Shown piece after piece: positions 30,767 through 34,792 of a stretch of 64,000 bases of DNA (position 1 is the first letter of the stretch; each line of letters starts with the position of its first letter). The stretch spans positions 186,001 through 250,000 of the forward strand of contig SCUO01000093.1 of NCBI GenBank assembly GCA_004297395.1. Direction: 5' to 3'. Source of the stretch: Chloroflexota bacterium (GTDB lineage: Bacteria; Chloroflexota; Limnocylindria; Limnocylindrales; CSP1-4). The translations under genes and the position numbers were made by a program. The notes beneath the pieces were generated by a model that searched no databases, was not told the DNA's origin, and was given only the letters and a program-made list of their open reading frames with translations.

Positions 30767-32065
30767 ATGTTCCTCGATCGGGTGAAGATCCTGGTGCGCG
30801 CCGGCGCGGGTGGCGATGGCGCGGCCACGTTCCGGCGGGAGGCCCACGTCCCGCGCGGCGGTCCCGATGGCGGCGACGGCGGCCGCGGCGGCTCCATCCA
30901 CCTGCGGGTCGACCCGGGCCAGACGACGCTCCGTGACTTCCGTTTCCGGCACCACTTCCGGGCGACGCCCGGGGGCCGTGGCGAGGGATCCCGGCGGCAC
31001 GGTGCGGCCGGCGAGGACCTGGTCCTGGAGGTCCCGCCGGGCACGGCGATCTACGACGACGCAACCGGGGCGCTGCTGGCCGATCTCGTGGCCAGCGGCC
31101 AGGCAGCGATGGTCGCCCGCGGCGGGCGCGGCGGTCTCGGCAACAAGCACTTTGCGACCTCGACCCACCAGGCCCCGCGGCACGCCCAGAAGGGCGAGCC
31201 AGGCGAGGAGCGCTGGCTCCGCCTGGAGCTCCGGCTCATCGCCGACATCGGCCTCGTGGGCCTGCCCAACGCCGGCAAGTCGACGCTCCTCGCGGCGCTC
31301 ACGGCGGCGACCCCGAAGATCGCCGACTACCCGTTCACGACGCTGGAGCCGAATCTCGGGGTCATGGACCTTGGCGACGACGACCCGCGCCTGCCGACGA
31401 TCGCCGATGTCCCCGGCCTGATCGAGGGCGCCAGCGAGGGTGCCGGCTTGGGCCACGCCTTCCTCCGCCACATCGAACGGACGCGGGTTCTCGTCCACAT
31501 CGTCGACGGCGCCGGGCGCGACCCGGAGTGGGACCACGAGGTCATCCGGACCGAGCTCGCCGCGCACGACCCGGCGCTCCTCAAGAAGCCGCTCCTCGTC
31601 GTCTTCAACAAGCTCGACCTGCCGGCGGCCGCCGAGGCCTGGCCGGCCTTTCGCGCCGCGCGCCAGCGGGACGGCCTGCCCGTGATTGCCATCGCCGCGG
31701 CCGAGGGTCGCGGGATCGCCGAGCTCCGGGCCGCCCTCGCCAAGCTCCTGCCGAGCGCCGAGGCGATGGCCGAGCCGCCCGAGCCGGCCGGTGTCGTCGT
31801 CCATCGCATGGCGGAGCTCGGCGACGGCTTCTCGGTCGACCGGGACAGCGACGGCGTCCTGCGCGTCCGGGGCCGTCGTATCGAGCGGATCGCGGCCCAG
31901 ACGAACTTCGAGATCGAGGAATCGGCCGAGCGCTTCCAGCGCGACCTCACCCGCATGGGCATCGACGCCGAGCTGCGGCGAGCCGGCGTCGCCAGCGGCG
32001 ACGTTGTCCGCTTCGGCGAGATCGAGCTCGAGTGGGAGGCCGAGCCCTGGGCCGTCGAGCGGTGA
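30767..32065 (+). CDS. obg: GTPase Obg/CgtA with C-terminal OCT domain
   Basis: MFLDRVKILVRAGAGGDGAATFRREAHVPRGGPDGGDGGRGGSI...LVGLPNAGKSTLLAALTAATPKIADYPFTTLEPNLGVM; OCT segment at C-terminus. Confidence 0.97.
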   Translation: MFLDRVKILVRAGAGGDGAATFRREAHVPRGGPDGGDGGRGGSIHLRVDPGQTTLRDFRFRHHFRATPGGRGEGSRRHGAAGEDLVLEVPPGTAIYDDATGALLADLVASGQAAMVARGGRGGLGNKHFATSTHQAPRHAQKGEPGEERWLRLELRLIADIGLVGLPNAGKSTLLAALTAATPKIADYPFTTLEPNLGVMDLGDDDPRLPTIADVPGLIEGASEGAGLGHAFLRHIERTRVLVHIVDGAGRDPEWDHEVIRTELAAHDPALLKKPLLVVFNKLDLPAAAEAWPAFRAARQRDGLPVIAIAAAEGRGIAELRAALAKLLPSAEAMAEPPEPAGVVVHRMAELGDGFSVDRDSDGVLRVRGRRIERIAAQTNFEIEESAERFQRDLTRMGIDAELRRAGVASGDVVRFGEIELEWEAEPWAVER

Positions 32066-32084: not shown

Positions 32085-33197
32085 GTGACGGGCGAGGCCG
32101 GCGAGGCGCGCGCCATCGCCCGGATCGGGATCCTGGGCGGCACGTTCGATCCGGTCCACCTCGGTCATCTCGCGATCGCCGAGGCGGCCCGGACAACACT
32201 CGATCTGGAACGAGTCCTGTTCCTGCCGGCCGGGACGCCGCCCCACAAGCGGGGCGAGGTCGACGCGCCGGCGGCGGACCGGGTGGCGATGGTCGAGCTC
32301 GCCATCTCCGGCCAGCCGGCGTTCGAGCTCAGTCGCGTCGACGTCGATCGTCCGGGGCCGTCCTACACGGCCGATTCGGTCGAGCGCATCGCGGCCGCCG
32401 AGCGGGCGGCCGGGCGCGAGCCTGACCTGTTCCTCATCGTGTCGGCCGAGACCCTGGCCGAGCTGCCCGAGTGGCACGAGCCGGCCCGCCTGCTCGCCAC
32501 CAGCCGGATCGCCGTCGTCCCCCGGCCCGGCCATGCCCGTCCCGACCCCGGCTGGATCGAGGCCAGCTTTCCCGGCCAGGCCGACCGGATCGTGGCCATC
32601 GACGGGCCGCGCCTGGCGATCTCCTCGACCGACATCCGGGAGCGGATCGCCGCCGGCCGGACGGTCCGGCGGCTGCTGCCGGCGGCGGTCGCGCGCTACA
32701 TCGTCGATCATGGCCTCTACCAGCCCCAGCGCCAGTCCCCACCCGAGGAGCCCCAGCCAGTGACCGACCCAGCTCTCGCCCCGCGTCCCGACGGGCTGCC
32801 CCGGCGCGAGACGCCGCCGCCCGTCCCGGCTCGCGCCGCCGCCGTCGACGAGCGCTCGTCGCTCGATCTTGCCCGGCGCGTCGTCGAGCTGGCCGAGGAC
32901 AAGAAGGCGGCCGATATCGTGCTCCTCGACCTGTCCGGCCTGACGACCATGGCCGACTACTTCGTGATCTGCTCCGGCGGGTCGGAGCGGCAGATCGCCG
33001 CGATCGCGGACGGCATCGTGGGGGGCCTCCGGGACGAGAAGATCCGGCCGATCGGGCGCGAGGGTCTCGCCGCGTCGCACTGGGTCCTGGTCGACTTCGG
33101 CTCGGTCATCGTCCACGTCTTCACGCCGCCTGAGCGCGACTTCTACCAGCTCGAGAAGCACTGGGCCGAGGCGAAGACGATCCTCCGCGTCCAGTAG
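32085..33197 (+). CDS. nadD-rsfS: Fused nicotinate-nucleotide adenylyltransferase (NadD) - ribosome silencing factor (RsfS)
   Basis: One open frame: RIGILGGTFDPVHLGHLAIAEAA...RLAISSTDIRERIAAG...ARYIVDHGLYQP then linker then DLARRVVELAEDKKAADIVLLDLSGLTTMADYFVICSGGSERQIAAIADGI...HWVLVDFGSVIVHVFTPPERDFYQLEKHWAEA. In-frame GTG at 32760 preceded by GAGGAG. Confidence 0.9.
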   Translation: MTGEAGEARAIARIGILGGTFDPVHLGHLAIAEAARTTLDLERVLFLPAGTPPHKRGEVDAPAADRVAMVELAISGQPAFELSRVDVDRPGPSYTADSVERIAAAERAAGREPDLFLIVSAETLAELPEWHEPARLLATSRIAVVPRPGHARPDPGWIEASFPGQADRIVAIDGPRLAISSTDIRERIAAGRTVRRLLPAAVARYIVDHGLYQPQRQSPPEEPQPVTDPALAPRPDGLPRRETPPPVPARAAAVDERSSLDLARRVVELAEDKKAADIVLLDLSGLTTMADYFVICSGGSERQIAAIADGIVGGLRDEKIRPIGREGLAASHWVLVDFGSVIVHVFTPPERDFYQLEKHWAEAKTILRVQ

Positions 33198-33643: not shown

Positions 33644-34792
33644 TCAGCCGGCCGGCGCCACCCGATCAGCCACCCACAGGTCAAACGCCAGCCTGACGGC
33701 CGCGTCGCCGGCCACGCTGCCGCCGACTCCCTTGACGAGCGAATCCAGCTCCAGCAGGCCCTCGAGGGCCGCGCCGAGCTCGTCGACTGTCCACGCCCTG
33801 GCCTGGCGGGCGAGGGTCTCGGCCCGGAACGGCTGGAGACGCATCGAGCGGACGAGCGATCCCGGCGTCTCACCGCCTGTCAGGCGGTCCGCCACCTCGA
33901 GGAGCTCCCGCATCCGGCGGTGCAGGACCGCCAGGAGGACCGGCTCCGGCGTGGCCTCCAGGAGGCGCTCGAGGAGCTCGAGGGCGCGGGCCCGTTGGCG
34001 CATTCCCACGGCGTCCACGAATGCCCAGATCGAGCCCGGCACGACCTCGGCGACGAGGTCGCGGACGTCGTCGACGGTCACGGCCGGGCCGGAGCCCGCC
34101 GGGCCGGAGCCCGCCGGGCCGGAGCCCGCCGGATCGAGCGTGGCGTGGCGGAGGGCGAGCTTCTCGAGCTCGGTCACCGCCAGGCGGCCCTGCTGGCGCC
34201 GGTCGACGTCGCCCTCGCGGACGAAGCCACCGACCCTGGTCGCGAGCTCCCGCGCGGCGCCGGGGGCCAGGGCGATGCCGCGCTCCCGGGCGCGCGCCTC
34301 GATCCAGGCGGCCAGGCCGCCTTCGCGCGGGGCCTCGAAGCGACGGACCTCCCCGCCGGCCGAGCGAACGGCGTCGGCGAGTGCCTTCGAGGGCGGATCC
34401 TTCTTGCCGCTGTCGGTCTCCTCGGCGACCACAAGCCCGTTGCCATCGGCCAGGGTCGCCACCGCCGCGACGAGCGCGTCCCGGTCCTCGCCGCGCCGGA
34501 CGAGGGGGCCCGCGTTCGTGAGGATGGCCAGGGTCCCCGACCCGAACAGGGTCCCCGTCGAGAGGCGTGCCCGGATCTCGCCAATCGTCCGGGCCGCCTC
34601 GCCGACCTCGCCCCGCACGCGCCAGCGCTCGGGTGGGCCGCCCGGGAATCGGATCGGGTCGAGTCGGACCGCCTCGGCGGCGGCTTCCAGGCCGTAGGCG
34701 TCGTCGCCCCAGAAGTAGGCGACCGGGGTCGCGCTCGAGCCGGGCAGTCGGGAGGCCGCGGAACCAGGACGTGGGGATGTCACCGCCGGCAT
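33644..34792 (-). CDS. holA: DNA polymerase III delta subunit
   Basis: VAYFWGDDAYGLEAAAEAVRL...VVAEETDSGKKDPPSKALADAV...VDAVGMRQRARALELLERLLEATPEPVLLAVLHRRMRELLEV; downstream of comEA-comEC. Confidence 0.85.
   Translation of the reverse strand: MPAVTSPRPGSAASRLPGSSATPVAYFWGDDAYGLEAAAEAVRLDPIRFPGGPPERWRVRGEVGEAARTIGEIRARLSTGTLFGSGTLAILTNAGPLVRRGEDRDALVAAVATLADGNGLVVAEETDSGKKDPPSKALADAVRSAGGEVRRFEAPREGGLAAWIEARARERGIALAPGAARELATRVGGFVREGDVDRRQQGRLAVTELEKLALRHATLDPAGSGPAGSGPAGSGPAVTVDDVRDLVAEVVPGSIWAFVDAVGMRQRARALELLERLLEATPEPVLLAVLHRRMRELLEVADRLTGGETPGSLVRSMRLQPFRAETLARQARAWTVDELGAALEGLLELDSLVKGVGGSVAGDAAVRLAFDLWVADRVAPAG

Follow-up and report, generated by a model that had tools for sequence, protein, structure and literature searches.

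Among the known arrangements close to the locus described here is a pair of separate, overlapping nadD and rsfS genes. Where a stop and a start codon overlap by 4 nt, translation of the two genes can be coupled by termination–reinitiation (PMC6728339). Pairs of this type resemble our locus in the genes themselves, their order, the Shine-Dalgarno sequence and the start codon, and they are likely the ancestral state. They differ in having a stop between the genes. The fused locus has no such stop, so coupling by termination–reinitiation is lost, and free RsfS could be obtained only by de novo internal initiation. An in-frame internal start is reported to give two proteins from one gene in archaeal Cas11b (PMC11899642) and in the two-polypeptide phage endolysins (PMC9430671). 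The likeness lies in a start within a longer frame, a common stop and a C-terminal part that also occurs alone (here a prediction). Unlike these systems, NadD-RsfS combines in its longer frame two housekeeping proteins that are unrelated, and its internal start predates the fusion. Frame transitions between adjacent genes (PMC3711429) were a further comparison case. The locus is a clear, recurrent case of a known event, in which overlapping neighbours are fused and the internal start is retained. No description of a NadD-RsfS fusion was found in the literature searched, where no paper contains both full protein names; of three that mention RsfS, NadD and fusion, the two listed deal with other matters, judging by title and abstract.

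The window is the whole 64,000-nt stretch of DNA that was analysed. Translation of the window shows a frame with no internal stop from nadD into rsfS, and neither a stop nor a frameshift is present in the linker between 32700 and 32760. The uninterrupted fusion proposed in the earlier note is thus borne out: the frame is open over its full length, and a domain search with the 370-aa product returned both Pfam domains, each half scoring above its profile cut-offs. CTP_transf_like matches residues 16–187 (8e-23), and RsfS (PF02410) matches residues 265–360 (1e-31; profile positions 2–98 of 98; 109.5 against a cut-off of 21.6). Among the curated NCBIfam models, the nicotinate-nucleotide adenylyltransferase equivalogs NF000840 (185.8 bits against 150) and TIGR00482 (158.8 against 112.45) recognize the NadD half, and TIGR00090 (rsfS) recognizes the other (111.5 bits against 56.9; profile positions 2–99 of 99). 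By sequence, each half separately matches solved structures, NadD ones and RsfS ones, respectively. Both domains are complete; the profiles put a full NadD at about residues 12–214 and a full RsfS at about residues 263–370. A NadD with a second domain is also represented by NF005519/PRK07152 (361 positions, longer than NadD alone), which we take to be a model of the NadD-HD/YqeK fusion. The partner is different there, and the window protein scores 96.5 bits against a cut-off of 315, far below it.

Features of the nadD-rsfS locus in the window (positions in the 64,000-nt stretch)
Feature	Position	Strand	Basis
Fused nadD-rsfS ORF	32085–33197	+	370 aa; GTG start at 32085, TAG stop at 33195–33197; homologous fused frames in relatives
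NadD domain, aa 12–214	32118–32726	+	Profile matches; GGTFDPxHxGH and SSTxIR motifs intact; AlphaFold pLDDT mostly >90
Junction, 13 codons; former nadD C-terminal tail, now in the rsfS frame	32721–32759	+	Length variation; pN/pS
GAGGAG, Shine-Dalgarno-like sequence of rsfS	32745–32750	+	GAGGA at equal distance in 6/6 fused genes
Internal GTG, ancestral rsfS start codon (GTGACCGAC, 'VTD')	32760–32762	+	Matching GTGACCGA start in split relatives
RsfS N-terminal tail, aa 226–257	32760–32855	+	Low-confidence/disordered; RPDGLPRR motif at 32784–32807
RsfS domain, about aa 258–370	32856–33194	+	Matches to Pfam, NCBIfam and solved structures; AlphaFold

Proteins of the NadD family make deamido-NAD, and those of the RsfS family bind uL14 on the 50S subunit and block joining of the 30S subunit. 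Purifying selection acts clearly on both the nadD and the rsfS domain (pN/pS 0.12–0.49). AlphaFold predicts both domains with confidence. The tether between them (residues about 214–258) has a pLDDT of about 50–65 and is predicted to be disordered; together with a pTM of 0.63, this model indicates no fixed contact between NadD and RsfS.

The "Pro-rich linker" of the earlier note stands in part: the true junction amounts to about 13 codons, and the remainder belongs to RsfS as its N-terminal tail. Junction length among the fused genes is 27, 30, 33 or 39 nt, varying in steps of three, and is longer in one genome (G010). The junction, with a pN/pS of 0.4–1.0, is much less constrained than the domains; the value is rough, as it comes from 11–13 codons. 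Within the RsfS tail, a motif G(L/M)PxR, usually RPDGLPRR, is conserved in 50 of 62 related loci while the surrounding sequence drifts. RsfS of the other families examined in the class lacks this motif, which perhaps marks a contact with the ribosome or a partner.

The in-frame GTG at 32760 with its upstream GAGGAG, pointed out in the earlier note, proved real: the spacing from the end of GAGGAG is exactly 9 nt, and the arrangement is conserved across the fused genes. The window holds 1624 GTG triplets on its two strands, and only 29 of them (<2%) have a GAGGA motif 7–18 nt upstream. This motif is present in 5/5 fused genes tested, in G010 by eye, and at most split rsfS starts. All counts of conservation come from related sequences. 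The six fused genes keep the pattern GAG GAN NNN NNN NNN GTG ACC. The codon after GAG varies among GAG, GAA, GAT and GAC, that is, between Glu and Asp, and GAGGA is unchanged, which argues that nucleotides rather than amino acids are being held. GTG and ACC likewise have a fixed third base in 6/6 genes, compared with 11 invariant columns among 48 comparable fourfold ones, and GTG is a minor valine codon in these genes (50 GTG vs 126 GTC). A conserved ribosome-binding site and start codon, as expected of a gene with two products, are therefore present inside the frame. Since GAGGA and GTGACC are common to the fused genes and their split relatives, the GTG at 32760 is the original rsfS start, older than the fusion and not a novelty of the linker.

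The split relatives suggest how the join arose. An exact 4-nt overlap of nadD and rsfS (GTGA or ATGA) is present in at least 21 of 53 split loci. The rsfS Shine-Dalgarno sequence in split relatives is mostly GGAGGA, and in loci of the overlap type it is typically followed 8–10 nt on by GTGACCGA, the GTG of which overlaps the TGA of nadD as GTGA. Counted in bases modulo 3, the distance from the end of NadD (..GLY) to this GTG is 2 in the overlap type and 0 in fused genes. Since most split loci likewise have an rsfS frame that stays open far upstream, a length change of one or two bases suffices for fusion. We propose descent from an ordinary nadD-rsfS pair through loss of the 4-nt GTGA overlap. 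In the dispensable tail of nadD, a slight change of length would have shifted nadD into the rsfS frame, and NadD would then have been read straight into RsfS, stops being scarce in the rsfS frame of this high-GC DNA. The ancestral ribosome-binding site and GTG start of rsfS would have been retained.

The comparison set comprised 107 genomes of the family, with the window genome, a Chloroflexota one, as G000. Uninterrupted fusions are present in G000, G005, G034 and G008, the last carrying two differing copies, each on its own contig. In G010 the fusion runs through the junction, and rsfS has a separate frameshift within it. In G080, from the genus of G034, the gene is fused up to the end of a contig, and the remainder opens a second contig, the two overlapping in frame by 14 nt. 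All remaining loci of the family in which the junction was read are split, apart from an artefact in G093 (L055). The survey of relatives thus gave a mixture of fused and split forms, not the uniformly split set that would have spoken against a fusion, and independent assemblies share the fused form. The two fused copies in G008 (L002 on contig C40 and L032 on contig C90) are 89% and 75% identical to the window; either two strains or species were binned together or this is a true duplication. No separate free rsfS, which would make the fused copy redundant, was found on searching the window's genome, which is about 85% complete, so that this is no proof of absence. Beyond the fused locus, the same genome holds a weak partial NadD-like match (38%, E 5e-4). 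A search of plasmids returned short matches only, two of them annotated rsfS.

In the tree, G000, G005, G010, G007 and both G008 copies form a clade with a support of 0.99. G007 lies inside this fused clade as sister to the second G008 copy (0.92). Its nadD, in the third frame, stops 32 nt after the shared GTG; GGAGGA and the start are kept, and RsfS of G007 must therefore start at or near this site. If the frame read from this one MAG is correct, G007 would have abandoned the fusion with its rsfS start unaltered. G034 belongs to another genus, where it groups with the split G028 (0.95), and this placement makes its fusion independent. The fused state is kept in 5/6 genes of the window clade and in both g21 genomes that yielded the locus, while the residues of the junction drift. 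Within the fused clade, junction length changes mostly in steps of three, G007 being the exception; by our count (about P = 0.05), this hints weakly that the fused frame may itself be maintained.

The fusion also occurs outside Chloroflexota. In the Arenicella clade (Gammaproteobacteria), a full fusion is present in an uncultured Arenicella MAG (L091, genome G131) and in 9 of its 20 relatives, at 57–67% identity (fused loci of the clade: L091, L143 and L145–L153). The order of domains and the kind of junction are as in the window; the split G363 shows an ATGA overlap. G363 and G368, both split, lie in or next to the fused clade. Unlike the window, these loci have a lower GC content, a linker that is very short in most cases, and an independent origin; the old rsfS ATG survives in all of them, without a Shine-Dalgarno sequence. 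Further away, the locus of G376 (L154) is fused with an intact RsfS domain and no ATG, GTG or TTG in its linker, and is apparently an obligate fusion. When 251 Chloroflexota and 151 Gammaproteobacteria genomes, sampled evenly, were searched, the fusion was found, among the matches listed, only in these groups, which points to its being rare in Chloroflexota. The distribution indicates at least three origins of the fusion: in the window clade, in G034/G080 and in the Arenicella clade.

The fusion and its recurrence are shown, as is the internal start's ancestral and conserved status. The best reading of the locus, to which we assign a probability of about 75%, combines the lost-overlap origin with two products, the NadD-RsfS fusion and free RsfS from the ancestral start. 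In the fusion product, a flexible tether would hold two domains that go on working as usual, and free RsfS would be initiated within the frame by its own Shine-Dalgarno sequence. We infer that both are made, and that free RsfS maintains selection on the internal start. The suggestion in the earlier note that the locus could yield both forms gains from a start that is ancestral and conserved. Internal starts can be inefficient in a heavily translated frame, and the GTG could instead be a relic, the whole supply of RsfS coming as the C-terminal half of the fusion. The Arenicella clade, with its unaided ATG, and G376 seem to be in such a state. For the window it is unlikely, given a Shine-Dalgarno sequence and GTG that are invariant in the clade while the surrounding junction drifts, and a G007 protein that needs a start at this site. 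An assembly or indel error joining two separate genes has a precedent in L055 (G093), where two N bases at the end of nadD create a false fusion. We rejected this explanation for the window, where its probability is close to negligible: the C-terminal end of its NadD, YIVDHGLY, is retained in frame ahead of the join, and the same fusion is seen in six more sequences, again with the NadD ends in frame.

It has also to be considered whether the tether itself is selected, so that NAD metabolism would control 50S silencing or NadD would be brought to the ribosome. The origin of the fusion on at least three occasions and its persistence across wide divergence in the Arenicella clade would fit such a coupling. 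We nevertheless regard it as quite improbable. Chance fusion is easy, nadD and rsfS being so often overlapping neighbours; the junction is not conserved; split genes lie in or beside the fused Arenicella clade; the fusion is rare in both samples of genomes, among the matches listed; and no fixed interface is predicted. A selected bifunctional protein, repeatedly evolved to link NAD supply to 50S silencing, with the ratio of fused to free protein set via the internal start, is very improbable. The physical coupling of NAD synthesis and ribosome hibernation raised in the earlier note is accordingly disfavoured, since the junction is poorly conserved, the tether is disordered in the model and loss of the GTGA overlap explains the fusion. 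The adjacency to obg that accompanied this proposal is correct, as obg ends at 32065, 19 nt upstream of the fused gene, but it has the look of a normal gene neighbourhood. After obg come nadD-rsfS, a small cysteine-rich ORF and then, on the opposite strand, genes resembling holA and comEC; all names but nadD and rsfS come from reading the translations only. The holA-like gene (minus strand) contains, at 34083–34132, 3.3 perfect repeats of a 15-bp unit, GCCGGGCCGGAGCCC, which encode an in-frame 5-aa repeat.

Split, long-overlap and fused states coexist in one genus, which amounts to a gene fusion caught in the act. The start signal of rsfS predates the fusion, yet is still kept. The locus is an annotation trap, in which one bifunctional protein would be called and the predicted free RsfS missed; conversely, assembly gaps can mimic fusions, as in L055. 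The repeated appearance of the fusion in unrelated lineages offers natural material for asking whether RsfS remains functional when its N-terminus carries an entire enzyme.
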